The notes under the pieces: generated by a model
What the model was told of the DNA's origin: nothing
Seen by the model: only the letters and a program-made list of their open reading frames with translations
The model's database searches: none
Shown here: piece by piece, positions 48,991 through 64,000 of the stretch
Numbering within the stretch: the first letter of the stretch is position 1
Layout of the letters: the number at the start of each line of letters is the position of its first letter
DNA from: Luteolibacter flavescens
GTDB lineage: Bacteria; Verrucomicrobiota; Verrucomicrobiia; Verrucomicrobiales; Akkermansiaceae
NCBI RefSeq assembly: GCF_025950085.1
Contig: NZ_JAPDDS010000001.1
Coordinates: 434,001-498,000 of the forward strand
Direction of reading: 5' to 3'
Length of the DNA: 64,000 nt
Program-made: the position numbers and the translations under genes

Positions 48991-51786
48991 ATGAATCTCC
49001 CGAGAAGTCTCCGGCCTGCGTTGCTGTGTGGTGCATTCGCCCTGTCGCTCGTCTCTGCCGACCGAGCCTCCGCGGCAACGCTCCCGCCCGGATTCGAGGA
49101 GGTGGAAGTGGCGGGCGGGCTGAATCCCACGACGATGACCTTCGCTCCGGACAGGCGGCTTTTCCTCTGCGAGAAGCACGGGCTGCTGCGGGTGATCGAT
49201 GGTCGGAAGATGCTGCCCGAGCCTACCCTCGACATCTCGGCCAAGGTGGATGCCTGGAATGAACGCGGGCTGCTGAGCGTTTGCTTCGATCCGGACTTCG
49301 CGCGCAACGGCTGGATCTACGTTTACTACACCCACAACCGCGAGCCCGGAAAGAAGGACCGCACCAACAGCAACAACCGCGTGAGCCGCTTCACGATGAA
49401 GGGCAATGTCGCCGATGCGCGGAGCGAGAAGGTGCTGCTGGAACTCAATGATCTCTCCAAGATCGGCTGGCACAACGGCGGCGGGCTCGCCTTTGGCAAG
49501 GACGGCAAGCTCTACGTCAGCACTGGCGAAAACTCCAAAGACTCGAATGCACAGGACGGCAGCAACCTGCTCGGCAAGCTCCTGCGGATCAACAAGGACG
49601 GCAGTATCCCCACGGACAATCCCCACTACAGGGATTTCAAGGGACAGAATCGGGCCATCGTCGCGCTCGGGCTGCGGAATCCATTCAGCATCGCCGTCCA
49701 GCGCACGACCGGCCTGCTCTATCTCAGCGAGGTCGGTGCGAACTACGAACAGATCGAAGGCTACGACAGTAGCATCCCGCCCGTGCCGGTGAACTACGGT
49801 TGGCCGGGCATCGACGGCCCGCCGAGGAACCAGAAGCAGCCGGAAAATTACCGGGCTCCTGTATATCCCTACGACCATGGCCGGGGTGAGGGACTGGCAC
49901 TTTGCTCGGGTGATTTTTACAATCCTGCCAAACCGGGCGATGGTGCGTTCCCCGGAGAATACACGGGGCGCTTCTTCTTCAGCGACTACAAGGGCTGGAT
50001 CAAATTCATCGACCCCGCGAAACCGGAAGTCCGCCATGATTTCGCTAGCGGCATCAATCGTCCCATCGACGTTGAGACCGCGCCGGATGGATCTCTCTGG
50101 TACATCGCGAGGGCCGGAATTCCCGGTGGATCTGACGAAGCGAACAGTGCGAGCACGAATGGCTCGCTCTGGCGCATCCACTGGGCAGGCGGCGGCCAGC
50201 CTGCCAAACTCGCCGTGATCCAACAGCCGACTGGAGCCAATGTCGGAGCGCCGATCGGTGACGTGAAGATCGCGATCCAGGACTCCACCGGCAAGACCGT
50301 GGATACGGCGAGCAACACGATCACGCTGACTCTCGATGGCAGCCCACCCGGAGCCACGCTTTCCGGCACCACGAGTGTGTCGGCGGTGAATGGAGTCGCC
50401 ATGTTTTCCTCGCTGGCAATCGGCAAGCCTGGCCGCGGCTATGTCTTGCGCGCCAGCGGTGACGGTCTGGCATCAGCGAGCAGCAATGCCTTCGACATCA
50501 CCGACCAGCTCGCACCTCCGTCTATCGTTCCGGGCGGTGGCAGCTTCACCGGACCGGTGTGGCTGCGCGTCTCGAATCCCGTGCCGGGCTCGGGCGCGAC
50601 GATTCATTTCACGACGGACGGGAAGGAACCGGACGCCAATTCCCCCGCCTACACCGAGCCATTCAAGGTCGATGCCGACACGACGGTGAAAGCCATCGTC
50701 CGGCGTGGCGGCCTGACCGATAGCGCTGTCGCAACAGCTTCCATCAAGATCTCCGGCGATGTCCCATATGGCCTCGATGTGCGGCCACCGGTCAGCGGAT
50801 TGAAGCTTCCTGCCACCGCTGAAGGCGAGATGCCTAAGACACTTTCGGCGACCGGGATTTTCACCGACAGGAATCTGACGCCAAAGGCGGGTGTGGTGCC
50901 CTACTCGTTGAATACACCCGCATGGGCGGATGGCGCAGAGGCGCGGCATTGGGTGATCCTGCCGGAGTCGGGGAGGATCGGATTTTCGCCCACCGGAGAA
51001 TACAAGTGGCCCGGCGGAACGATCTTCGTGCAACACTTCGAGCTCATCACGGATCACACCGCGAACGAGCGCCGACGCATCGAGACCCGCGTGCTGGTGC
51101 TGGATGCCACCGGCAGCTTCGGCTACGGCGTGAACTACAAGTGGAGAGCGGACCACAGCGATGCGGACCTCGTCGATGCCGCCGGCCAAGAAGAAGTGCT
51201 GAAGATCACCGATGCCTCCGGAAAGTCCCGCGACCAAACGTGGACTTATCCCGGCAGCGGCCTGTGCTTTATGTGCCACACGCCGAATGCCGGCTTCGTG
51301 CTCGGACCGAAGACCCGCCAGCTCAACGGCAGCCACAGCTACGCCGCCGGTCGCACTGATAACCAGCTTCGCACTTGGAGCTACCTGCAGATGTTCACGG
51401 AGGCGCTGGATGAGAGCGCGATCGCAGGCCATCCACGCACCTGCCGCATCGATGACAAGACAGCATCGCTGGAGGATCGAGTGCGTTCTTACATCGATGC
51501 GAACTGCGCACACTGCCATCGCCCGAATGGCAGCGGAGCGCTCTGGGATGCCCGGTTTGACACGCCTCTCGCAAGTCAGGGCCTGCTGCATGGCGAGGTG
51601 CGGAACACCTTCGGAATCGATGGAGGCAAAGTCGTCGTCCCCGGAGATCCCGCGAAGTCATTGCTCCACCGCCGCATGGCCGCCACCACGCCGACCGAGC
51701 AGATGCCTCCGGTGACCCGCAACGTCCCGGATCAGGCGGCGCTGGATGCCATCGCCGAGTGGATCCGCGCACTGGATTCGAAATGA
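48991..51786 (+). CDS. Secreted sugar dehydrogenase fused to di-heme cytochrome
   Basis: 931-residue exported protein. After the signal peptide (to about ADRASA) comes a glucose/sorbosone dehydrogenase propeller (about 30-400; GLLSVCFDPDFARNGWIYVY, GLRNPFSIAVQRTTGLLYLS). Then follow Ig-like and chitobiase-C-terminal-like beta domains (about 420-590; IHFTTDGKEPDANSPAYTEP). The C-terminal part is a SO2930-type cytochrome with two heme motifs, CFMCH near residue 760 and CAHCH near 840. Single-chain coupling of sugar oxidation to heme reduction is inferred from the architecture. It is divergent from the ABC-2 permease gene, with 166 bp between. Confidence 0.9.
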   Translation: MNLPRSLRPALLCGAFALSLVSADRASAATLPPGFEEVEVAGGLNPTTMTFAPDRRLFLCEKHGLLRVIDGRKMLPEPTLDISAKVDAWNERGLLSVCFDPDFARNGWIYVYYTHNREPGKKDRTNSNNRVSRFTMKGNVADARSEKVLLELNDLSKIGWHNGGGLAFGKDGKLYVSTGENSKDSNAQDGSNLLGKLLRINKDGSIPTDNPHYRDFKGQNRAIVALGLRNPFSIAVQRTTGLLYLSEVGANYEQIEGYDSSIPPVPVNYGWPGIDGPPRNQKQPENYRAPVYPYDHGRGEGLALCSGDFYNPAKPGDGAFPGEYTGRFFFSDYKGWIKFIDPAKPEVRHDFASGINRPIDVETAPDGSLWYIARAGIPGGSDEANSASTNGSLWRIHWAGGGQPAKLAVIQQPTGANVGAPIGDVKIAIQDSTGKTVDTASNTITLTLDGSPPGATLSGTTSVSAVNGVAMFSSLAIGKPGRGYVLRASGDGLASASSNAFDITDQLAPPSIVPGGGSFTGPVWLRVSNPVPGSGATIHFTTDGKEPDANSPAYTEPFKVDADTTVKAIVRRGGLTDSAVATASIKISGDVPYGLDVRPPVSGLKLPATAEGEMPKTLSATGIFTDRNLTPKAGVVPYSLNTPAWADGAEARHWVILPESGRIGFSPTGEYKWPGGTIFVQHFELITDHTANERRRIETRVLVLDATGSFGYGVNYKWRADHSDADLVDAAGQEEVLKITDASGKSRDQTWTYPGSGLCFMCHTPNAGFVLGPKTRQLNGSHSYAAGRTDNQLRTWSYLQMFTEALDESAIAGHPRTCRIDDKTASLEDRVRSYIDANCAHCHRPNGSGALWDARFDTPLASQGLLHGEVRNTFGIDGGKVVVPGDPAKSLLHRRMAATTPTEQMPPVTRNVPDQAALDAIAEWIRALDSK

Positions 51787-51845
51787 AGAAGGCCAGAATG
51801 CGAGTGTCATTGCCCCTTCTGGTTCGGGTAAGCCGGGCGGGGAGT

Positions 51846-51874
51846 TTGACAAGGGCCGGGATTTCCCGTGCGTA
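51846..51874 (+). promoter_or_regulatory. Candidate promoter of the PVC heme-protein gene
   Basis: TTGACA (51846-51851), 17 bp, then TGCGTA (51869-51874), 12 bp before the ATG at 51886. The same TTGACA-N17-TGCGT layout occurs upstream of the gene at 59380, which supports it a little; the -10 part is far from TATAAT. Confidence 0.4.
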
Positions 51875-51885
51875 GTGGGGCATCC

Positions 51886-54800
51886 ATGAGAGCCGCCTGT
51901 TTCTCGGTCCTGCCACTGGTCGTCCCGCTGATCGCGGCACCGGAGAGCTATCCTTGTCAGAATGGTCTCGTCCGCACTCTCGTCGCCCGCGAGCCCATGT
52001 TCACCAATCCCGTCTCCGTGGCAGTGGACACGGACGGCACGATCTACGTGACCGAAACCACACGGCGGAAGCAGGCGGACCTGGATATCCGCGAGGTGAT
52101 GTGGTGGGTCACCGACGACCTATCCCACACGTCGGTCGAAGAGAAGCGGGACTTCTTCCGGAAGAACATCACCTCCGAGCGCTTCAGGAATCACCCGTCG
52201 TTGAAGGACCACGATGGAAACGGTCGGATCGATTGGCGGGACCTGACCGTTCATACGGAGAAGATCCATCGCCTGGTCGATACCGATGGGGATGGCATGG
52301 CAGATCGGCACACGCTATTCGCCGAGGGCTTCAATACCGAGGTCACGGGAATCGCCGCCGGGGTCTTCGCGCACCGCGGCGATGTCTATGCCACCATCGC
52401 GCCCGATGTATGGAAGCTCCGCGACACGGACGGCGACGGGAAAGCCGACGAACGCCAGTCCATCGCCCATGGCTTCGGCGTCCACATCAACTACGCCGGG
52501 CACGACATGCACGGGCTGACGCTCGGCCCGGATGGCAAGCTTTACTGGACCATCGGCGACAAGGGTCTAAACGTGGAAAGCGGCGGCAAACGCTGGGCCT
52601 ATCCGCACGAGGGCGCCGTCCTGCGCTGCAATCCCGATGGCAGCGATTTCGAGGTATTTGCCCACGGTTTACGAAACGTGCAGGAGATCGCCTTCGATGA
52701 GTACGGCTACCTCTTCGGCGTCGATAATGACTCCGACCAAAAGGGCGAAAAGGAGCGCCTCGTTTACATCCCCGAGCGCTCGGATCACGGATGGCGCTGC
52801 TACTACCAGTATCGTAGTGGGAAATACAATCCATGGATGGACGAGCACATCGCCTTCCCCGACGGCGAAGGCAGGCCCGCATCGATCATCCCGCCGCTGG
52901 CGCTCTACCTCGATGGCCCCAGCGGTTTCGCTTACAATCCCGGCACCGCGTTGAATGAACGCTATCGCGGTCACTTCTTTCTCACGCAGTTTCCTGCGGG
53001 GAAGATCAATGCCTTCCAACTCGAAGCCGACGGTGCGTCGTTCAAGATGAAGGGCGACCACCTGATGGCGAGCGGTACGGCCTTCACCGGCTGCAATTTC
53101 GGCCCGGATGGCGCTCTCTACGTTGCCGACTGGCAAGGCGGCTACCCGCTGAAAGAAAAGGGAGCCGTCTGGAAAATCGATGATCCAAAGGAAGCAGGCA
53201 GTGCAATGAGAAAGGAAGTCGCGGCCATGCTGAAGGAAGGGCCATCCAACACCCCGGATGAAGCGTTGGCTATCAGGCTTGGCCATGCCGACCAGCGCGT
53301 GCGTCTGGACGCACAGTGGGAACTCGCGACGCGCAAGAAGTGGCAAATCTTGAAGGAGGTCGCGGCTTCGAAAAACGCACCTCAACTCGCCCGCATCCAC
53401 GCCTTGTGGGGCCTGTCCCAAGGAGAGCAATTTGATGAGAAGCTGTTCTCCACACTGGCAGAAGATCAGGATCCTGAGCTTCGCGCGCAGGCGGCGAAGT
53501 GGGCGGGCGAGACCACGCAATCCCTCCCCTCCTCATTTACGGCACTGCTCGCGGACGATTCCGCGCGTGTCCGGTTTCAGGCAGCGATGGCGGTCGGAAA
53601 GTCAGGGGACAAGGCACATCTCGATCCGGTGATCGCCATGCTCGAGGCGAATGACAACAAGGACCCGTTCCTCCGTCACGCCGGCGCATTCGCCCTCAAG
53701 AGAAGCATCACGTCTGAATCCATCGCAACGGCGAGTGATCACCAGTCGCCCGCGGTGAGGCTTGCGGTCGTGGTCGCCGCCCGCGCGGCACTCTCCGACA
53801 CATTCAGCGGCATTGATTTCAAGAAGCCGGACGAGGTCATGCATCAGGAAGCAAAAGCCGTGATCATGGCCGGATCCACAGTGCTTAATCACCTGCTCGA
53901 AGATACTGACTCCGCGGTGGTGTCGGAGGCGGCTTGGGCCCTGTACGACGTGCGCCCTCCGGCTGGATACTGTATTAATCTTGCGAAGCTGCTGGAGAAA
54001 AAACCTGCCGCCAGCGAACCGACTCTCCGCCGTTCCATCGCCGCCAACCGCCGCTCGGGAAGCCTGTTGCCGCTGGCCACGTTCGCGATGGACCCAGCCC
54101 AACCGGAGGCCCTTCGCATCGCTGCGCTGGAGGCACTGGCCAGTGCAAAGTCGGCTGAACCGCTCGACCTCGTCGATGGCCGCCATGCGCCTCTCGATCC
54201 ACTCGACGTCTCTCCTGAACTCGCGTCGAAGCTCGCGAAAATCCTCTCGCCCCTCGCCGCCGAAGCGCGGCTTTCCTCCGCGGCAAATTCCGCGCTTGAA
54301 GCTCTCGGCGTGAAGCGGGATGCCGCCAGCCTGACCAAACGCGCACTCGATTCTTCGCTCGCCGCCGATCTCCGTATCGCGGCGCTTCGCCAATTGAAGG
54401 AAAGCGGTGACGCGAAGTGGTCCGACACCGCACTCGCCTTGTTGACGCAGGACTCCCCTGCCCTGCGGTCGGCTGCCGCAGGCCTGTTAGAGAAACAACA
54501 CACCAAAGAGCTCGCCGGTTATCTGGAATCGAAAGGCCTCGGATCGACTGACACGTCCGAACGCCAGGCGGCGGTTCGCCTGTTAAGAACGAATAAGTCC
54601 GAAGCAACCCGCCGTCTCCTTGATGAAGAAGTGGCCCGCTTCACCCGCGGAGAATTCGACCCTTCAGCCCTGCTCGAACTGGATGAGGCCTATCGGGTTC
54701 ATCACACCGAGGACCCCGACTTCATCCTGCGTTCGCTCGCCGAGCGCGGACCTCTCGGCAAGTGGAGCTACGCCCTTGCCGGGGGAAATACCGCGGCGGG

Positions 54801-55194
54801 TAAGAAGGTCTTCGAAGAAAACCTGAGCGCCAATTGCACCGCCTGCCACCGCATCGGCGAGCAGGGATCAAACGTCGGTCCGCCGCTCACGAAAATCGGA
54901 GAGAAGGACCGCAGCTACCTCCTCGAATCACTCGTCCATCCGCAGGCAAAGGTTGCCTCCGGCTACGGCATGATGAGCGCCACGAAGAAAGATGGCACCA
55001 CGGTCGCGGGCGCTTTCGTCGAGGACAAGGACGGCAAGCTCGTCCTCGCCCAGGCCGACGGCACGAAGCTCGAGATCACCCTCGCTGACATCGCCGCGAA
55101 GACCGATCCGATCAGCACGATGCCACCCATGGACGCCATCCTCAAGCCGACGGAACTGCGCGACCTCGTCGAGTTCCTCGCCTCGCTCAAGTGA
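51886..55194 (+). CDS. PVC-type dehydrogenase/cytochrome with HEAT repeats
   Basis: 1102-residue secreted relative of the protein at 38241-42161, without the levanase-like domain. The signal peptide starts MRAACFSVLPLVVPLIAA; an in-frame ATG six codons upstream is less likely. The propeller (about 30-430) includes GLTLGPDGKLYWTIGDKGLN and GLRNVQEIAFDEYGYLFGVD. HEAT-type repeats fill about 440-970. The C-terminal PVC heme domain has CTACH near residue 983 and GPPLTKIGEKDRSYLLESLV. It is likely an extracytoplasmic oxidoreductase of carbohydrate metabolism. The stop lies 5 bp from the end of the convergent gene at 55200. Confidence 0.9.
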   Translation: MRAACFSVLPLVVPLIAAPESYPCQNGLVRTLVAREPMFTNPVSVAVDTDGTIYVTETTRRKQADLDIREVMWWVTDDLSHTSVEEKRDFFRKNITSERFRNHPSLKDHDGNGRIDWRDLTVHTEKIHRLVDTDGDGMADRHTLFAEGFNTEVTGIAAGVFAHRGDVYATIAPDVWKLRDTDGDGKADERQSIAHGFGVHINYAGHDMHGLTLGPDGKLYWTIGDKGLNVESGGKRWAYPHEGAVLRCNPDGSDFEVFAHGLRNVQEIAFDEYGYLFGVDNDSDQKGEKERLVYIPERSDHGWRCYYQYRSGKYNPWMDEHIAFPDGEGRPASIIPPLALYLDGPSGFAYNPGTALNERYRGHFFLTQFPAGKINAFQLEADGASFKMKGDHLMASGTAFTGCNFGPDGALYVADWQGGYPLKEKGAVWKIDDPKEAGSAMRKEVAAMLKEGPSNTPDEALAIRLGHADQRVRLDAQWELATRKKWQILKEVAASKNAPQLARIHALWGLSQGEQFDEKLFSTLAEDQDPELRAQAAKWAGETTQSLPSSFTALLADDSARVRFQAAMAVGKSGDKAHLDPVIAMLEANDNKDPFLRHAGAFALKRSITSESIATASDHQSPAVRLAVVVAARAALSDTFSGIDFKKPDEVMHQEAKAVIMAGSTVLNHLLEDTDSAVVSEAAWALYDVRPPAGYCINLAKLLEKKPAASEPTLRRSIAANRRSGSLLPLATFAMDPAQPEALRIAALEALASAKSAEPLDLVDGRHAPLDPLDVSPELASKLAKILSPLAAEARLSSAANSALEALGVKRDAASLTKRALDSSLAADLRIAALRQLKESGDAKWSDTALALLTQDSPALRSAAAGLLEKQHTKELAGYLESKGLGSTDTSERQAAVRLLRTNKSEATRRLLDEEVARFTRGEFDPSALLELDEAYRVHHTEDPDFILRSLAERGPLGKWSYALAGGNTAAGKKVFEENLSANCTACHRIGEQGSNVGPPLTKIGEKDRSYLLESLVHPQAKVASGYGMMSATKKDGTTVAGAFVEDKDGKLVLAQADGTKLEITLADIAAKTDPISTMPPMDAILKPTELRDLVEFLASLK

Positions 55195-55199
55195 GCCGC

Positions 55200-57392
55200 T
55201 CAGCCCTGCGGCTCGCCATTTGGGAAGATCGCCTGGATCGAGGTCTCGACGTGATCATCGATCCATGAATCCAGCGCCGCCTTCATCGGTTCCAGCACCT
55301 CCGGGCGCCCGCTCGCGATGTCGCTGCGGCAGTCGGGATCCGAGTCCAGGTGGAAGAGCCCGTAGTGACGGTCGCCAGCCTTGGTTGGCGTCGCGACCAC
55401 CTTCCAGTGGCGGGTGCGCAGGCAGCGTTGCTTTGAGGTGATCACTGCCTGCTCCCACTCGGGCTTCAGGACGAAGTGGTAGTTGTAGTCGCGGTCGATG
55501 GTCGTCATCTCGTCCATCGGCGAGATGTCCGGTCGCTCGACGCCGGGAACGCGGAAGAGGATGTAGGGAAAGCTGGTCTCGCCGTAGAAGGGCAGATCCT
55601 TCGGCTGCTCCGTGCCATCCACCCATCCGGCGAGGCTCTTGCCTTCCCACGAGGCCGGCTTCTCAATCCCGAGGAAGTCGAGCAGCGTCGGCGCGAGATC
55701 GATGGTGCGGACTTGTTCCGGCAGCGATTTCCCGGAGATGCCCGGCCCCGTGATCGCGAGCGGGATATGCGAGCAGTGGTCGGCACCGTTGAAGCCGAGC
55801 CCGTGGGTCAGTGTCACACCCGGCTCATACAGATCGTCCCCGTGGTCCGCGCACATCACCACGATGGTATTGTCCGCCAACCCTTCCTTCTCCAGCGCCG
55901 CCATGATGCGGCCGAAGCAATCGTCGAACTCCCGTGTACAGCCATCGTAGAGCCCGCGGATCTGGCGGACCTCGGCCTCGGAGAGCGCCTTCAGCTTGTC
56001 CTCCATGTTCGTCCCGCTGACGAATTCATTGATGTCGAAGGCCACGTAATCCTTGTTCGCGCCCCGGTAGGCAGGGTCAGTGAACATCTGCTTGTACTTC
56101 GTGGCGGCGCGATACGGCAGGTGGTTGCAGGAGTAGAAGACGTGCCAGAAGAAGGGCCTGCCCGTGGTCGCCTGCTTCGCCAGCTTGTCCTCCACCCGCT
56201 GCGTCACCACCTCCGGCGTCACGAATTGTGCGAAGGAGCCGAGCTGCGGGAAGAGCTTGTAGCCGACCGGATTGTCAAAATAGACCGGCACCACGAAGTG
56301 CGCGAGCAGCACGGCCTGGCTGACGTAGATGCGGAAGTTGTCGAAGCTGGACACCGAGATGTCGCGGAAGCCGAGAGGGATCTGGTTGTAGTAGTTCGCG
56401 CACCAGTCGCCGATGGCCACCGTGTCGTAGCCACGCTCGGAGAGCACGTCCGCCATCGTATCGATCTTCGCCTGCGTCGCCTCGATCTGCTCGCGCTGCG
56501 GGAACATGTGGCGCACGCCATGGGTGTGCGGCCAGGTGGAGGAAAACATGCTGATCGATGACTCCATCGTGGAGCCGATCGGCGAGTAGGCACGCTCGAA
56601 GCGCACGGCATCCTTCGCCCACTTGTCGATGTGCGGCGAGACGCCCTCTGCCGCCGGGCCGTCCTTCCGCGCGGGACGATAGCCGGAGTAGCCGATACGG
56701 TCGCCACGCAGCGAGTCGGACGCGATGATGATCACATTCGGCGGCTGCTTCCCCTGGATCTGGACCTTCTGTACCGGCGAGGCATCGCGGTTCAGAAACA
56801 GCACCGCCACCACGAGAACCGCCACCACGGCCACGATGCCACCACGGACCCGCGGTCCGAAACGCCGCAGCCACCAGATGGCAACGACCCACAGAGCCAC
56901 CCACGGCAGGACGCCGAAGAGCGCGCCATTCACCCATGGCCGCCACGACTCCGGCGGCAGCTCCAGCAAGCGGTGATACCAGTGGCCGAACTGGTCATCA
57001 TTCATGAAATACGGCCTCGCGTGCATCAATCGCACCACGAAGTAGCCATGGATCGCCAACGTGACGATCAGCGCAGGGAGAGCCACGGAACCCCGCCGCG
57101 AGGACGGGAAACGCTTCCGGAAAACAGCCACCACCGGCAGCACCAGGAAAACGGCGGCGAGCCAGAGCAGGAGATACCCCACCAGCACCCAGAGATTTTG
57201 TCCGATGAGATAGCTCAGGTGCTCGCTCTGCGCGACCTTGCTGAATTCGCTGTCCATCCCGCCCGTGGTATTCGCCAGTCGTTTCAGCGAGGCCACATAC
57301 TGATAGGCGAGGAAGAGGCCCGTGCCTCCCACCGTGCCGGCGATCCAGCGCTGCCATCTCTCCGGGCCGGGTTGTTTTGTCGATTCCGTCAC
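55200..57392 (-). CDS. Membrane alkaline-phosphatase-superfamily enzyme, sulfatase/phosphotransferase-like
   Basis: 730 residues. The first 200 carry about five membrane helices (residues about 15-34, 62-90, 105-120, 155-173, 187-200), followed by a periplasmic domain of the sulfatase fold (NVIIIASDSLRGDRIGYSGY with metal-binding Asp226; VVMCADHGDDLYEP). In place of the sulfatase CxPSR signature the text is ERAYSPIGSTMESSISMFSS, which puts Thr275 at the nucleophile position, as in lipoteichoic-acid synthase and phosphoethanolamine transferases. It may therefore transfer a phospho-headgroup onto an envelope glycan or lipid rather than cleave sulfate. Substrate unknown. Confidence 0.88.
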   Translation of the reverse strand: MTESTKQPGPERWQRWIAGTVGGTGLFLAYQYVASLKRLANTTGGMDSEFSKVAQSEHLSYLIGQNLWVLVGYLLLWLAAVFLVLPVVAVFRKRFPSSRRGSVALPALIVTLAIHGYFVVRLMHARPYFMNDDQFGHWYHRLLELPPESWRPWVNGALFGVLPWVALWVVAIWWLRRFGPRVRGGIVAVVAVLVVAVLFLNRDASPVQKVQIQGKQPPNVIIIASDSLRGDRIGYSGYRPARKDGPAAEGVSPHIDKWAKDAVRFERAYSPIGSTMESSISMFSSTWPHTHGVRHMFPQREQIEATQAKIDTMADVLSERGYDTVAIGDWCANYYNQIPLGFRDISVSSFDNFRIYVSQAVLLAHFVVPVYFDNPVGYKLFPQLGSFAQFVTPEVVTQRVEDKLAKQATTGRPFFWHVFYSCNHLPYRAATKYKQMFTDPAYRGANKDYVAFDINEFVSGTNMEDKLKALSEAEVRQIRGLYDGCTREFDDCFGRIMAALEKEGLADNTIVVMCADHGDDLYEPGVTLTHGLGFNGADHCSHIPLAITGPGISGKSLPEQVRTIDLAPTLLDFLGIEKPASWEGKSLAGWVDGTEQPKDLPFYGETSFPYILFRVPGVERPDISPMDEMTTIDRDYNYHFVLKPEWEQAVITSKQRCLRTRHWKVVATPTKAGDRHYGLFHLDSDPDCRSDIASGRPEVLEPMKAALDSWIDDHVETSIQAIFPNGEPQG

Positions 57393-57563
57393 GCGAAGGG
57401 GACGCTTGCAGGGCGAGGCACCGGGATCAAGGGCGGTCCGCGGGAGCCTCCGTCACACGCTTCCCGTCCCCGGAGCGGGGATTCCCCGGATGCCGCCGAA
57501 AAGCGCAAATGCCGTTCGACGGCCCGCCCTGTCATGGCTTATGAAGCGGGCCGCCCACACCCG

Positions 57564-58667
57564 ATGCCTGCCCGGATTCTCATTTGCACTGCCGCCTTCG
57601 GAGAAGGTCACAACAGCGCCGCCCGCAATCTGGCGCTGGCGCTGGAGGAAGCGGGTGCCGAGGCGCGGGTCACCGATCCCTGCCTGCTCGGCGCGCCGGT
57701 CAGCACCCGCTGGCTGTGCAATGGCTACCGCTTCATCACCACCCGCTTCCCCGGCATCTGGTACCGGGTCTACCTGCGGACGGCCGACGTGGATTTCTCG
57801 AAGCAGCGCATGCCCTTGATGCGCAAGCCGGAACGCAAGCTCGGCGAACTCGTGGAAACGTGGAAGCCGGACGCGATCGTCGCCACCTACCCTCTCTACC
57901 CGTATTTCTTGGAGCGCCTGCTGGAGGGGCACCCGAATCCGCCGAAGATCTTCACCGTCGTCACCGACTCCATCGAGATCAATGCCGCGTGGCTGAAATG
58001 CCCCACCGCGGAGTGGCTGGTCTCGGACGCGCACACCCGCGACACGATGATCCGCGGGGGCCTGCCGGCCGAGCGGGTGATCGACACCGGCTTCCCGGTG
58101 AATCCCGCCTTCTCCCGGCTCACGCCGGTGGCGGCGGATGATGCCTGCGAGCCCTTCCGCGTGCTGTTTTTCACCACTTCGCGGCGGCTCCAGGTCCGGC
58201 GCTTCGCAAAGGCGGTGCTGGAAGCGTCGCCCCGCACGGAGGTCACCATCGTGCTGGGCAAGAACGTCCGCCACCTCTGGAAAAAGGCGAAGGAAGTCCG
58301 CGATGCCTTCCCCGGCCGTGTGAAGATCAAGGGCTGGACCCGCAAGGTGCCCCAGCTTCTCAACAGCCACCACGTCGTCATCGGCAAGGCCGGCGGTGCC
58401 ACGGTCCACGAGGCCATCGCCGCCCGATGCCCGATGCTGGTGCACCATCTGGTGCCCGGCCAAGAGGAAGGAAACCTGCGCCTGCTGGAGTCCATCGGCT
58501 CCGGACGACTCGCGGATTCCCCGGAATCCATGCGCGCCGCCGTCACCGACCTCCTCGCCGACAATGCCGCCCTGTGGCGGGCGATGAAGCGCCGCCTGTC
58601 CGTCCACGGCCGGAATGCCGGTGCCATCGCCTCGGCGACGCATGTGCTCACGCGACTGGCACGATAG
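57564..58667 (+). CDS. MGDG-synthase-like glycosyltransferase (GT28 family)
   Basis: 367-residue glycosyltransferase with a GT-B fold. The N-terminal domain is MGDG_synth-like (ILICTAAFGEGHNSAARNLA, with the GEGH loop; DAIVATYPLYPYFLERLL). The C-terminal domain has the UDP-sugar site typical of MurG-like enzymes (VVIGKAGGATVHEAIAARCP). It probably adds galactose or glucose to diacylglycerol or a related lipid. I chose the ATG at 57564 (MPARILICT), which matches the family; an ATG at 57534 would add ten residues. The HAD phosphatase gene follows after 24 bp. Confidence 0.9.
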   Translation: MPARILICTAAFGEGHNSAARNLALALEEAGAEARVTDPCLLGAPVSTRWLCNGYRFITTRFPGIWYRVYLRTADVDFSKQRMPLMRKPERKLGELVETWKPDAIVATYPLYPYFLERLLEGHPNPPKIFTVVTDSIEINAAWLKCPTAEWLVSDAHTRDTMIRGGLPAERVIDTGFPVNPAFSRLTPVAADDACEPFRVLFFTTSRRLQVRRFAKAVLEASPRTEVTIVLGKNVRHLWKKAKEVRDAFPGRVKIKGWTRKVPQLLNSHHVVIGKAGGATVHEAIAARCPMLVHHLVPGQEEGNLRLLESIGSGRLADSPESMRAAVTDLLADNAALWRAMKRRLSVHGRNAGAIASATHVLTRLAR

Positions 58668-58691
58668 CACATCCCCCATTCCCCCTGCTCC

Positions 58692-59291
58692 ATGACCTTC
58701 CTCTTCGACATCGGCAAAGTGATCCTCGATTTCCATTTCGAGCCCTCGCTTGCCAAGCTACTGCCGCCGGGCACTGAAAACGGTCCCGAGCGCTTGTCCG
58801 TTTTGCTGGAGAAGAAAGACGATTTCGAAGGCGGGCGCATTTCCTTGGCCGAGTATGTCCCTTGGGCCATCGAGCGGCTTGGTTCGGCAGTGAGCGACGA
58901 AGACTTCGTCCATGCCTGGCGGAACATCTTCACGCCGAATCTGGCAATGTGGCGGGTGATCGAAAGCCTCGCTGCGGGCGGCCACCGGCTGATCCTGTTT
59001 TCGAATACGAACGGCATCCACTGCCCGTGGATCTTCGAGAACTACGAGATCTTCCGGCACTTCCCGGAGGCGGTGCTCTCCTACGAGGCCGGATCGATCA
59101 AGCCGGAGCCGGAGATCTATCACCACGCGATCGCCACCTACGGGCTCAAGCCCCAGGAGACTCGCTACATCGACGACCTCCCCGCAAACATCGAGACCGG
59201 CAGGACGCTCGGATTCCGGTCGTGGCAGTATGATCTGAATGACCACGCCGCCTTCGAGCGATGGCTCGCGGCGGAGATGATGCACGGCTGA
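58692..59291 (+). CDS. HAD-IA family phosphatase
   Basis: 199-residue haloacid-dehalogenase-like hydrolase, cytoplasmic. Motif I is FLFDIGKVILDF, in which the usual second Asp is Gly; this DIGxV form is normal for one HAD-IA group. Motif II is ILFSNTNG, the conserved Lys is in AGSIKPEPEIYHHA, and motif IV is ETRYIDDLPANIETG. Substrate cannot be predicted. It is probably cotranscribed with the upstream glycosyltransferase. Confidence 0.92.
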   Translation: MTFLFDIGKVILDFHFEPSLAKLLPPGTENGPERLSVLLEKKDDFEGGRISLAEYVPWAIERLGSAVSDEDFVHAWRNIFTPNLAMWRVIESLAAGGHRLILFSNTNGIHCPWIFENYEIFRHFPEAVLSYEAGSIKPEPEIYHHAIATYGLKPQETRYIDDLPANIETGRTLGFRSWQYDLNDHAAFERWLAAEMMHG

Positions 59292-59319
59292 GGCGCAGTC
59301 CCGGCCCCGCGGGCGGACT

Positions 59320-59348
59320 TTGACAAAAATCGACTCGGGACTTGCGTC
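59320..59348 (+). promoter_or_regulatory. Candidate promoter upstream of the barrel-protein gene
   Basis: TTGACA (59320-59325) and TGCGTC (59343-59348) with a 17-bp spacer, the same layout as at 51846. The palindrome at 59352-59371 lies directly downstream, where a bound repressor would block transcription. The -10 match is poor. Confidence 0.4.
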
Positions 59349-59351
59349 GCG

Positions 59352-59371
59352 AAATTAGCCTAGGCTAATTT
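59352..59371 (+). promoter_or_regulatory. Perfect palindrome, candidate MntR/DtxR-type operator
   Basis: AAATTAGCCTAGGCTAATTT is a perfect 20-bp palindrome 8 bp before the ATG at 59380. The TTAGCCT/AGGCTAA core resembles DtxR-family (MntR, IdeR) sites. A related copy precedes the metal-binding protein gene at 60175, so both units are probably repressed together when metal is plentiful. Confidence 0.7.
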
Positions 59372-59379
59372 TTTCCGCG

Positions 59380-60138
59380 ATGACTAATTCATTCACACGG
59401 ACGCTGTCCCTGATCGCCATCTCAACCCCTCTCGCCGCAGTGGAACTCCGACCGCTCAGCACGGATCGGCCCGACACCACGGAGAGCCCCTACACGGTCG
59501 ATGCGGGACACTTCCAATTCGAAATGGAGGTCGCGGCCTGGACCCGCGAAGGCTCCGCCGACAGCGTTTCACTCGGCGAGCTGAACGCGAAATTCGGCCT
59601 GAACACCTCGACCGACCTGCAGGTGGTGATTTCCTATTTCACCCATGAAGACAGTGGCGCAGAAGGCTTCGGCGACATCCAAGTCCGCCTGAAACACAAT
59701 CTTTGGGGCAATGATGAAGGCTCCACCGCCTTGGCCGTGATGCCCTATCTGAAGCTGCCTACCGCGAACAGCGACCTCGGAAATGGCAAGCTGGAAGGCG
59801 GCATCATCGTTCCCTTCGCCTTCGACGGCCCGGGCGAATGGGGCTGCGCCGTCATGACCCAGCTCGATATCGCCGAGGACTCGGACGGCAGCGGCTATCA
59901 CGCGGTCTCCGTCAATTCCGTCACCGCCAGCCACGCGATCACCGAGAATGCGGCCGTTTTCTTCGAACTGGTCGGAATTTTCAGCGCGGACTCCGACGAT
60001 CACACCGAGGCGTATTTCAATACCGGCTGCACCTACGCGCTGGACGCGACCACCCAGCTCGACGGCGGCGTGAGACTCGGCCTCACCGATGCTTCGGCGG
60101 ACGTGACCCCTTTCCTCGGCCTGAGCAAAAAGTTTTAA
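59380..60138 (+). CDS. Outer-membrane barrel protein (phenol-MetA/transporter family)
   Basis: 252 residues with a signal peptide (cleavage probably after ISTPLAA). The mature part is built of amphipathic strands and ends in aromatic residue Phe (GLSKKF), as outer-membrane barrels do. The start ELRPLSTDRPDTTESPYTVD and SYFTHEDSGAEGFGDIQVRL identify the family often labelled 'transporter, MetA-pathway of phenol degradation'. Because a metalloregulator-like palindrome lies directly upstream and a Mn-type ABC importer directly downstream, it may act as a metal channel in the outer membrane. That role is inferred from context only. Confidence 0.85.
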   Translation: MTNSFTRTLSLIAISTPLAAVELRPLSTDRPDTTESPYTVDAGHFQFEMEVAAWTREGSADSVSLGELNAKFGLNTSTDLQVVISYFTHEDSGAEGFGDIQVRLKHNLWGNDEGSTALAVMPYLKLPTANSDLGNGKLEGGIIVPFAFDGPGEWGCAVMTQLDIAEDSDGSGYHAVSVNSVTASHAITENAAVFFELVGIFSADSDDHTEAYFNTGCTYALDATTQLDGGVRLGLTDASADVTPFLGLSKKF

Positions 60139-60143
60139 TCTCA

Positions 60144-60163
60144 AATTTAGCCTAAACTAAGAT
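60144..60163 (+). promoter_or_regulatory. Second, imperfect copy of the metalloregulator-like palindrome
   Basis: The core TTAGCCTAAACTAA (60147-60160) matches 12 of 14 positions of the perfect site at 59355-59368. It overlaps a possible -10 element, TAAGAT (60158-60163), just 11 bp before the ATG of the metal-binding protein gene, so binding there would repress troABCD transcription. Confidence 0.6.
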
Positions 60164-60174
60164 TCTACGTTGCG

Positions 60175-61122
60175 ATGAACCTCAACCGACTCCAAGATCC
60201 CGCCGTGTCCAATGGCATCCTGAAGCGCCGCGCCGTGCTCGCCCTCGCGATGGGGGCGGCCCTTTTCGCCGGCTGCAGTTCCCCGAAGTCGTCCGACTCG
60301 ACCGGCAAGAAGAAGGTCGTCACCAGCTTCACCATCATCGCCGACATGGCCCGCGAGGTCGCCGGCGATGCCGCGGAGGTGGAATCCATCACGAAACCCG
60401 GATCCGAGATCCACGGCTACGAGCCGACTCCGAAGGACATCGTAAAGGCCCAGACCGCTGACCTCGTGCTGTGGAATGGCATGAATCTCGAGCTGTGGTT
60501 CGAGAAGTTCTTCGAGAACGTGAAGGACGTGCCAAGCGCCGTGGTCACCGAGGGCATCGAGCCCATGGGTATCAGCGAGGGCCCCTACACCGGGAAGCCG
60601 AATCCGCATGCATGGATGTCCCCGGCCAATGCTGTAATTTACGTGGAAAACATCCGCAAGGCATTGGTGCAGATGGACCCCGCCAACGAGGCGATCTATA
60701 ACACGAACGCCGCTGCCTATGTGGAGAAGATCAAGGCCTTGGACGAACCGGTGCGCCAAAAGCTCGCCAGCATTCCGGAGGAGCAGCGCTGGCTGGTCAG
60801 CAGCGAGGGAGCATTCTCCTACCTCTGCGCGAATTACGGGCTGAAGCAGCTCTACCTCTGGCCGATCAATGCCGACGCGCAGGGCACCCCGCAGCAGGTG
60901 CAGAAGGTCATCGACAGCGTCCGCGAGAACAAGATCCCGGTGATCTTCTCCGAGAGCACCGTCAGCGACAAGCCCGCCCGGCAGGTCAGCAAGGAAACCG
61001 GCGCGCGCTACGGCGGCGTGCTCTATGTCGACTCGCTGACCGATGAGTCCGGGCCCGCGCCCAGCTACCTGAAGCTGCTGGAAGCGAATTCCGAGACCAT
61101 CGTGAAGGGCTTCCAGCAATGA
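60175..61122 (+). CDS. troA: Metal ABC transporter substrate-binding lipoprotein (TroA/PsaA/MntA type)
   Basis: 315 residues. The signal ends in a lipobox (FAGCSS), so the protein is lipid-anchored at Cys34. The four metal ligands can be placed: His80 (EIHGYEPTP), His145 (NPHAWMSP), Glu211 (SSEGAFSYL) and Asp286 ([11 protein letters not shown]). Glu at the third position, rather than His, is typical of manganese/iron binders such as PsaA and MntC and argues against a zinc-only protein. It heads the importer operon and has the second palindrome right in front of it. Length is normal. Confidence 0.93.
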
Positions 61123-61135
61123 TCTCACCGTGGCA

Positions 61136-61150
61136 GCGGCTTCCAGCCGC
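61136..61150 (+). promoter_or_regulatory. Small hairpin between troA and troB
   Basis: A 6-bp stem (GCGGCT with AGCCGC) and a 3-nt loop lie 13 bp after the troA stop. Such hairpins sometimes protect an upstream binding-protein mRNA so that it exceeds the pump mRNA; here this is only a possibility. Confidence 0.3.
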
Positions 61151-61171
61151 AAGCCCCACCAATCCCCGACC

Positions 61172-62065
61172 ATGACTCCCCTCACCCTCGACGTGGAATC
61201 CGTGTCCGTGGCCTATTCCAATGGCCACCGGGCGCTCCATGATGCGACCTTTCACCTGAAGGGCGGCACCATCTGCGCCCTGGTGGGGGTCAATGGCAGC
61301 GGGAAATCAACGCTGTTCAAGAGCATCATGGGCTTCGTCCATCCGGATTGTGGCGCGGTCCGGATCAATGGCCGGCCGGTGCGCGTCGCCCTACGGGAAA
61401 ATCTGGTCGCCTACGTCCCGCAGGCCGAGGAGGTCGATTGGCAATTCCCCGTGAATGTCACCGACGTGACGATGATGGGGCGCTATGGCTCGATGAATTT
61501 CCTCCGCATCCCTCGAGCCACCGACAAGGCCGCGGTGGAGGAAAGCCTGAAGCGGGTCTCCATGTGGGACTTCCGCGAACGGCAGATCGGCGAGCTCAGC
61601 GGAGGGCAAAAGAAGCGCGTCTTCCTCGCCCGCGCGCTTGCGCAGGGAGCGCGCATCATCCTGCTGGATGAGCCCTTCACCGGCGTGGATGTGAAGACCG
61701 AGGAGGCGATCATCGCGCTGCTCCGAGAACTGCGGGAAGCCGGGTGCATCATTCTCGTCTCCACCCACAATCTCGGCAGCGTGCCGGAATTCTGCGACCA
61801 GGTCGTGCTCATCAATCGCACCGTGCTCGCCTACGGGGATACGCATGACGTCTTCACCGAGCAGAACCTGACCAAGGCGTTCGGAGGGGTGCTCCGGCAA
61901 TTCCACTTCGAGGAATCCACCATCCAGGACCACGACGGCCGCGCCGTCCGCGTCCTCTCCGACGACGAGCGCCCGCTGGTCTTTGGCAAGGACGGCCACC
62001 TCGAATACAAGGACCGCGAAGGCCGCGAACACATCGTCAAGCAGCGCGAGGAGGAAGAGGGATGA
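61172..62065 (+). CDS. troB: Metal ABC transporter ATP-binding protein
   Basis: 297-residue ATPase of the manganese/zinc importer. Walker A is [11 protein letters not shown], the signature is [15 protein letters not shown], Walker B is [12 protein letters not shown]. The start [15 protein letters not shown] was chosen at 61172; an upstream in-frame extension to 61130 has no family support. A C-terminal tail of about 40 residues past the ATPase ([20 protein letters not shown]) is longer than usual. The stop overlaps troC by ATGA. It acts on the inner side of the cytoplasmic membrane. Confidence 0.95.
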
Positions 62066-62928
62066 TCTCCGATCTCCTCATACCCCTTCAGTATGACTAC
62101 ATGCTGCGTGCGATCTGGGTCAGCACCTTGATTGGCGGGGTTTGCGGTTTCCTGTCGTCCTTCGTCACGATGAAGGGTTGGTCGCTGATGGGTGACGCGC
62201 TTTCGCACGCGGTGGTCCCGGGGGTGGCGCTGGCCTATCTCTTCGGCCTGCCTTTCGCGCTCGGGGCATTCGTGGCGGGGCTGCTGGCGGCGGGCACCAT
62301 GGCTTTCGTGAAAACCCAGAGCCGCCTCCGCGAGGACGCGACGATGGGCATCGTCTTCACCACCTACTTCGCCCTCGGTCTGCTGCTCATCTCCATTTTC
62401 CCCGCGGGGGTGGACCGCAAGACAATCATCTTTGGCAATATCCTGGGGATCTCCGACTCGGATATCCTTCAGGTGGTCGCGATCAGCGTCGTGGCGCTCG
62501 TGGTGCTGGGGCTGAAGTGGCGCGACCTGATGCTCTTCTGCTTCGATCCGAATCAGGCGCGCACGCTCGGGCTGCCGGTGCGGCGATTGCACCTGCTGCT
62601 GCTGGCCCTGCTCTCGGCCGTTACCGTCGCCGCGCTACAGGCGGTCGGCGCGGTGCTGGTGGTGGCCATGCTCATCACGCCCGGTGCCACGGCCTTCCTC
62701 CTCACGGACCGCTTCGGGAGGATGCTCTGGATCTCGTCCCTTTTGGGTGCCGTCACCTCGATGACCGGCGCCTACTCGAGCTACTACGTCAATGGCTCCA
62801 CCGGCGGGTGCATCGTCACCCTCCAGACGCTGGTTTTCCTCGTCGCCTTCATCTTTGCCCCGAAACACGGCATGCTCGCGGCCAAGCGCCGCGCCCGCCA
62901 AACCGCCCAACTCGATGGACCTGTTTGA
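62062..62928 (+). CDS. troC: Metal ABC transporter permease (ABC-3 family)
   Basis: 288-residue channel subunit with about eight membrane segments. Typical stretches are [20 protein letters not shown] near the start, [20 protein letters not shown], and [20 protein letters not shown]. The ATG overlaps troB as ATGA. It forms the channel with the very similar neighbour downstream; TroC/TroD heterodimers are normal in this family. Confidence 0.95.
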
Positions 62929-63754
62929 GCCACTTCGCTACCCCTTCATGCAGGACGCGCTGCTGGTCGGCTGCGTCATCGCGGCGATGTGCGCGGTGCT
63001 CTCGTGCTTTCTCATCCTGAAAGGCTGGTCGCTCATGGGCGACGCCATTTCACACGCAGTGCTGCCCGGCATCGTCATCGCCTACCTCGCCGGACTGCCG
63101 CTGGCGCTCGGCGCATTCGCCTCCGGCCTGACGTGCGCGATCGGCACCGGCTTCATCAAGCAACACAGCCGGATCAAGGAGGACACCGTGATGGGCGTCG
63201 TCTTCACCGGCATGTTTGCCTTCGGACTGGTGCTCTTCAGCCGCACCCACTCGGACCTCCATCTCGACCACATCCTTTTCGGCAACATCCTCGGCATCGC
63301 CCGCGAGCAGAGGATCGAAAGCTACCTGCTCGGCGGCGGCATCCTCGCCATCGTCGCGCTGCTGCGGAGGGATTTCCTGCTGATCTGCTTCGATCCCGCG
63401 CAGGCGCGCGTGCTCGGCATCCGGGAGAGATTCCTGAATTACCTCCTGCTTTCCCTTCTCTCGCTGGCCATCGTCGTCGCGCTCAAGGCTGTCGGCATCA
63501 TCCTGGTGGTGGCAATGCTGATCGCGCCCGGCTGCATCGCGCACCTGTGGACCGACCGTTTCGACCGGATGCTGATGATCGCCACGGCTTCCGCCGTCGG
63601 GTCCACCGTCACGGGCATCTTCATCAGCTTCCATATCGAAGGCTCTACCGGAGCATGCATCGTCCTGACCCAGGCACTCGTTTTCACCGCGTCACTCCTG
63701 TTTGCGCCGAAATACGGGATCTACGGCGTGGCGCGTCGGAGGGGCGGGGCCTGA
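62915..63754 (+). CDS. troD: Metal ABC transporter permease (ABC-3 family), second subunit
   Basis: 279 residues, closely related to its neighbour ([40 protein letters not shown]). I chose the ATG at 62915 ([19 protein letters not shown]), which overlaps the end of troC by 14 bp; a longer reading lies wholly inside troC. About eight membrane segments. It is the last gene of the importer operon; the 65-bp gap before the next gene has no terminator that I can see. Confidence 0.94.
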
Positions 63755-63819
63755 AACACCCCCGTCATCCCCTCTCATTCCGCTTGCCGGGGCGAGTCGT
63801 GGTGAAGAATCTCCCGGCG

Positions 63820-64000
63820 ATGCAAACCGCTGCCTATTTCAAAGACCTGTTCGGCCTCGAGGGACAAACCGCCGTCGTCATCGGGGGCACCGGAGAGCTT
63901 TGCGGCTGCATGGCACAGGGTCTCGCCCGCGCCGGCGCGGAGGTCGTGCTGGTCGGCCGCATCCGCGAAAAGGCCGAGCGGAACCTCACCGAGATCGAGG
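63820..64000 (+). CDS. SDR family oxidoreductase (partial, N-terminus only)
   Basis: Only the first 60 residues are in the window. They contain a Rossmann-fold start: [20 protein letters not shown], then the strand AEVVLVGR. This is the NAD(P)-binding half of a short-chain dehydrogenase; the glycine motif reads GGTGELCG, as in D-mannonate or fructuronate-type SDRs. The substrate cannot be known without the rest. A GTG at 63799 is an alternative in-frame start. Confidence 0.8.

Follow-up and report, generated by a model that had tools for sequence, protein, structure and literature searches.

Could an outer-membrane barrel and a manganese importer be controlled by one repressor and serve as a metal route across both membranes? 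This question is raised in Luteolibacter flavescens by a barrel gene that has troA, troB, troC, and troD downstream in the same orientation, with one palindromic site before the barrel gene and a degenerate copy of it before troA. The window, i.e., the whole stretch of DNA that was analysed, comprises 64,000 nucleotides, and the locus contains the following features:

59352..59371, no strand assigned: perfect 20-bp palindrome AAATTAGCCTAGGCTAATTT, predicted MntR operator of the barrel gene
59380..60138, + strand: barrel, predicted 12-stranded, Phenol_MetA_deg (COG4313-like), 252 aa with C-terminal Phe, assigned by PF13557 and the structural model
60147..60160, no strand assigned: degenerate second site TTAGCCTAAACTAA (12/14) in the barrel-troA gap, predicted MntR site
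60175..61122, + strand: troA, substrate-binding lipoprotein of the YfeA/MntC (Mn/Fe) clade (PF01297, 306.8 bits)
61172..62065, + strand: troB, importer ATPase (PF00005); a longer frame runs from 61130 and the start codon is our choice
62062..62928, + strand: troC, membrane permease (PF00950, 297 bits)
62915..63754, + strand: troD, second membrane permease (PF00950, 283.9 bits); ATG at 62915, scan from 62918

Two linked operator-like sites at the barrel-troA locus

The palindrome ends 8 bp before the ATG of the barrel gene, and its position therefore suits repression; both sites appear to be placed as repressor operators. Although AAATTAGCCTAGGCTAATTT is the sole perfect 20-bp palindrome in the window, it is by itself only mildly unusual there and is not decisive alone, because 11/60 dinucleotide shuffles of the window also carried such a palindrome. 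For the second site, the 36-bp barrel-troA gap was shuffled, and a 12/14 match was reached in 3 of 20,000 trials. A count over 36-bp tiles was set aside, because sites across a tile border escape it, as both real sites did. Two or more matches in the window at ≤3 mismatches were obtained in 8/100 shuffles.

The pattern TTAGYCNNNNCTAA occurs at two places only in the 5.9-Mb genome, both at the barrel-troA locus and spaced by 792 bp. This is a tighter family pattern that was picked after both sites were known, and its backwards control gave 5 and 3. When TTAGCCTAGGCTAA was searched genome-wide with up to 2 mismatches, both locus sites were recovered together with one site on contig 21. The backwards control at this threshold gave 10 matches per strand, and the contig 21 site, like two-mismatch matches generally, is therefore at chance level. 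It was dropped as a genuine site; no metal gene was recognised in the stretch read around it.

Conservation was examined in 14 close relatives (the window, the congener L006, and the twelve nearest named relatives, L039–L050), with operator patterns and classes (T-class and G-class) that were all defined after earlier results had been inspected. An operator was found 5′ of the barrel, within about 260 bp, in 13/14 (12 T-class and 1 G-class); L041 is the one relative without it. The G-class operator belongs to L043, where an E. coli-type MntR gene precedes the barrel. In the barrel-troA gap, TTAGYCNNNNCTAA was present in 12/14 and absent from L043 and L045. None of 1974 background stretches of the same 14 loci carried an operator. 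The original prediction had placed a perfect 20-bp palindrome before the barrel gene and a 12/14 copy of its core before troA. Both were located (59352–59371 and 60147–60160), and the observation of two linked sites holds because they are conserved in the relatives, not because of the palindrome alone.

A single recognised MntR-type regulator in the genome

The genome, which is 97.5% complete, contains one PF02742 match and thus one recognised DtxR-family gene, on contig 3, away from the barrel locus. The encoded regulator has 147 aa, with a DNA-binding domain (PF01325, 68.8 bits) and a metal-binding domain (PF02742, 51.5 bits), and its closest PDB relative is Bacillus subtilis MntR (E 6e-33). 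In an ungapped alignment, D8, E11, H77, E99, E102, and H103, which we take to be the metal ligands in MntR numbering, were identical in 6/6 positions. Judged by its sequence, the contig 3 gene is a Bacillus-type MntR, and it would bind both sites and repress both genes. The earlier claim of one DtxR/MntR-type repressor for the barrel gene and troA is thus supported by the sole PF02742 match and by the two TTAGYCNNNNCTAA sites. The genome search that had been suggested with it, for sites and for a DtxR-family regulator, returned only both locus sites for TTAGYCNNNNCTAA and one MntR. Sites before unrelated genes, the case named as refuting, did not appear besides the near-match on contig 21.

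The barrel as a predicted outer-membrane channel

The barrel matched Pfam PF13557 (Phenol_MetA_deg), presumably equivalent to COG4313, with 67.8 bits at a cut-off of 22. Its predicted model has 12 strands (pLDDT 90.3, pTM 0.83), and the nearest folds were the amyloid secretion channel FapF (5o65/5o68; Z 23.3) and the COG4313 channel 4rl8_A (Z 22.3; rmsd 2.4 over 217 residues, about 14% identity in the structural alignment). These two are tied, so that the modelled fold alone leaves a COG4313 channel and FapF undistinguished. FapF secretes amyloid; no amyloid gene was found when seven proteins of the window were run against Pfam. Searched by its sequence alone, the barrel gave no solved structure at E 1. 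Of the PDB chains, a profile built from 50 barrel relatives reached FapF only, at E 0.09 and above, and 4rl8 was not found at E 10. Because neither search gave a firm structure match, the fold assignment combines Pfam and the model. There was no PHROG match at E 0.01.

The structural alignment with 4rl8 begins at residue 29 of the barrel, ahead of strand 1. In this N-terminal segment, D29, D32, E35, and D41 are invariant in the 50 rows of an alignment of the window with 49 of the 80 barrel loci described below, and His44 is nearly invariant. We predict that the barrel is an outer-membrane channel of the Phenol_MetA_deg (COG4313-like) family.

A YfeA/MntC-type importer downstream of the barrel

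The best PDB relatives of TroA were YfeA (453 bits) and MntC (385 bits). Its motif SEGAF is of Glu-type, as opposed to the SHDAF-like motif of eight His-type relatives (8/8 aligned), and we take Glu at the third ligand place to be the mark of a YfeA/MntC-type binding protein. TroB scored 378 bits against the NCBIfam manganese/iron ABC ATP-binding protein, just below the cut-off of 393. With a Glu-type binding protein, an ATPase, and permeases in one run, the importer is, from these family assignments, a YfeA/MntC-type metal ABC importer. Elsewhere, the genome encodes a second binding protein, of ZnuA-type, and no Nramp match was found in the 97.5% complete genome. YfeA has Fe and Zn as substrates besides Mn, and in relatives the barrel also occurs together with His-type binding proteins; the selectivity of the barrel for Mn is therefore uncertain.

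Recurrent linkage of barrel relatives to metal genes

Linkage was analysed in 80 named barrel loci, which are the best 80 of 464, so that near relatives are over-represented; some of these loci end near the barrel. A metal ABC importer, Nramp importer, or DtxR-family gene lay within 4 kb in 51/80 (an ABC importer gene in 41, Nramp in 7, and a DtxR-family gene only in 3), and none in 29/80. DtxR matches within 4 kb were present in 30/80; 14 of them are weak downstream matches taken as permease-fused domains (one checked), and 16 look separate.

Matches to the family were also counted in 26 genomes, which were selected from 194 searched for carrying a barrel relative. Here, 18 of 42 PF13557 matches (one of them below the Pfam cut-off) were located ≤5 kb from a gene for a metal-binding protein (ZnuA/TroA-type) or a DtxR-family gene, where 0.31 were expected; 11 were near a ZnuA/TroA-type gene and 15 near a DtxR-family gene. 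This linkage count omits two of 34 rows, which are second pieces of proteins already included. Seen from the importer, YfeA-type troA was found in 38/286 genomes searched, and among the 30 troA loci examined, a barrel was present within 1.5 kb in 16 and absent in 14.

The gene order varies in the relatives: the barrel precedes troA, separates troA from troB, or comes after a His-type binding protein. A tree was built with 63 barrels, taken from the window and from 62 of the 80 loci, and the five neighbourhood labels required at least 16 changes on it, with 4 the least possible. This result argues for repeated recruitment and not for one frozen gene order. The 29 barrels that lack metal neighbours could have a different substrate, or could work at a distance from their importer. 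Two of these loci, L092 and L109, carry a T-class-like site upstream (9/10).

Several other arrangements were observed among the loci. In L127 (positions 181–1737, genome G066), one ORF joins an ABC permease (PF00950) to a DtxR-type metal-binding domain (PF02742). G088, G126, G121, and G108 look similar, with the ORF checked for L127 only. The fusion resembles Chlamydia YtgCR, a known permease-repressor fusion. An Nramp gene starts 16–55 bp after the barrel in L064, L072, L073, L078, and L082, and is followed in L072 and L082 by what looks by eye like a universal-stress-protein gene. In L059, L067, L079, L097, and L101, a lone barrel is followed by a chemotaxis-receptor-like gene (by eye from the sequence). 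Barrel relatives are also present in Hyphomicrobium (L083, L116, and L117), and the neighbours of L083 and L117 look copper-related by eye. Some record titles look mislabelled: L068 and several environmental MAGs are filed under Klebsiella pneumoniae or, for the MAGs, Akkermansia muciniphila, whereas their barrels are placed among Verrucomicrobiota in the tree.

Operator class and regulator class in the relatives

A divergent DtxR-family gene at the barrel or its operon was found in 23 of the 26 loci given to the scan. The comparison of operators with regulators comprised 22 loci, since L018, L054, and L105 are without a divergent regulator by the scan and L108 has the same matches as L107. 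With a Bacillus-type MntR, the best core match was TTAG..CTAA in 8/10 loci. L102 has ATAG..CTAA, and in L015 a TTAG..CTAA palindrome, missed by the core scan, was visible in a separate scan. With an E. coli-type MntR, for which L107 is the type protein (best PDB relative 2h09), GTAG..CTAC was found in 7/8 loci, weakly in L094 (7/10); L100 was missed by the core scan, and GTAGCTTAGGCTAC is present there in the barrel-upstream scan. Long DtxR proteins were accompanied by TTTTGACTANTCAAAA at 15/15 in 3/4 loci, including the planctomycete record L070, with none in L021. Operator class thus tends to go with regulator class in these sequences.

In operons that begin with the binding-protein gene, ahead of the barrel, a T-class operator (≥10/12) preceded this gene in 14/21 and was found in none of the other 7; the background for an operator of any class was 12/832. 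Directly upstream of the barrel, the core TAGCCNNGGCTA was matched at 9 or 10 of 10 positions in 16 of the 80 loci, compared to 9 of 1600 background windows. The remaining 64 loci were below 9/10. For all of these comparisons, too, the operator patterns and classes had been set once earlier results were known.

Alternative readings of the locus

The barrel could be regulated by MntR and yet serve other or several divalent metals (Fe, Zn), or a metal complex, instead of free Mn(II). Such a role would fit the pairing of the barrel in relatives with His-type as well as Glu-type binding proteins, with the permease-DtxR fusion operon, and with long DtxR regulators. However, L. flavescens combines a Glu-type binding protein with a regulator that is by its sequence a Bacillus-type MntR and retains the MntR ligands, and the Nramp partners in 7/80 loci are MntH-like. 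We consider this reading unlikely.

COG4313 channels (Pput2725, structure 4rl8; SphA; TcpY) have been implicated in the uptake of hydrophobic molecules, with a substrate known for few members, and the proteins carry an annotation as phenol meta-pathway proteins (PMC4493636). The same source describes Pput2725 as an unlikely channel for hydrophilic molecules, although it lets ions through when the voltage is high and has a strongly electronegative outer cavity (PMC4493636). The L. flavescens barrel is likewise 12-stranded in its model, and could retain the usual hydrophobic substrate of the family as an envelope gene merely placed under a shared Mn regulator. In contrast to the COG4313 channels with described substrates, the barrel is tied to MntR and to metal importers; its relatives have been relinked repeatedly, in varying gene orders, to metal importers of three kinds, and a Pfam scan of seven window proteins recognised no aromatic-degradation enzyme. 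Retention of a hydrophobic substrate is therefore, in our estimate, quite improbable.

That the palindrome is an RNA hairpin, e.g., a terminator of the upstream HAD-hydrolase gene, is hardly credible and was rejected, because its RNA fold with T's coming next (−13.1 kcal/mol, z −2.9) and that of the congener's site (−10.2 kcal/mol, z −4.4) stand against a terminator scan that found none, a core TTAG..CTAA that itself recurs in relatives, a second site without an RNA fold (z +1.0), and sites located in relatives between divergent genes or before binding-protein genes. Rfam gave 0 matches at the gathering score in 50000–64000 of the window, and no sigma-70-like promoter was recognised by a simple scan.

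Proposed two-membrane manganese uptake unit

The reading that we prefer, with a probability of roughly three in four, is that the locus encodes a two-membrane Mn uptake unit, in which an MntR-repressed barrel is the entry channel for Mn(II) and TroABCD the importer. In its favour are the rarity of TTAGYCNNNNCTAA in the genome and the conservation of both sites, the one MntR with its conserved ligands, the missing Nramp match, the recurrent gene linkage, and the association of operator class with regulator class. Against it count the 29/80 barrel loci without a metal neighbour, the 14/30 troA loci without a barrel, the 64/80 barrels and 7/21 binding-protein-first operons whose upstream scans gave no such operator, the position of mntR away from the locus, the lack of a recognised promoter, and the description of Pput2725 as unsuited to hydrophilic molecules. 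When Mn(II) is sufficient, Mn-loaded MntR, encoded on contig 3, would occupy the perfect palindrome together with its weaker copy upstream of troA, and transcription of both the barrel gene and troA would be blocked. When Mn is short, both operators would be free and the barrel would be derepressed together with TroABCD. The COG4313-like barrel would then provide a path for Mn(II) over the outer membrane into the periplasm, where TroA would take the ion for TroBCD to pump into the cytoplasm. Passage of Mn(II) through the barrel would presumably occur by diffusion, because the barrel is, by its size and fold, without a TonB plug.

A review names only a few routes for Mn across the outer membrane, MnoP (Bradyrhizobium), OmpU (Vibrio), and MnoT (Burkholderia), and describes MnoP of Bradyrhizobium japonicum as an outer-membrane protein that mediates Mn import and is needed when Mn is scarce (PMC9334652). 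MnoP and the barrel can be compared in how they work, since both would import Mn across the outer membrane (a predicted function for the barrel). MnoP probably belongs to a different family from the barrel and is under a Fur/Mur-type regulator, not MntR. An MntR-regulated TonB-dependent receptor is reported from Stenotrophomonas in a 2026 paper (PMC13217887). This receptor and MnoT are outer-membrane proteins tied to Mn limitation, as is predicted for the barrel. Both are large TonB-dependent receptors with a plug domain, in contrast to the small barrel with its predicted 12 strands. No prior report connecting COG4313, PF13557, or 'MetA-pathway of phenol degradation' with manganese was found in the open-access literature, with subscription journals and preprints largely outside the scope of this search.

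Beyond L. flavescens, a COG4313-like branch present in Verrucomicrobiota, some Planctomycetota, and Omnitrophota probably serves as a whole as an outer-membrane channel dedicated to Mn(II) (or to divalent metals). This branch would have been combined repeatedly with importers of three kinds (Glu-type ABC, His-type ABC, and Nramp) and with DtxR-family regulators, likewise of three kinds, that each use an operator of their own. These operator-regulator pairs render the prediction directly testable. The barrel, which is encountered again in many Verrucomicrobiota and in a few further phyla, is a concrete candidate for an outer-membrane Mn route, and its annotation as 'phenol degradation' is put in question as misleading. 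A metal substrate is suggested for a channel family that has been described with hydrophobic substrates; if this is true, a family regarded as a carrier of hydrophobic compounds would include a metal channel.
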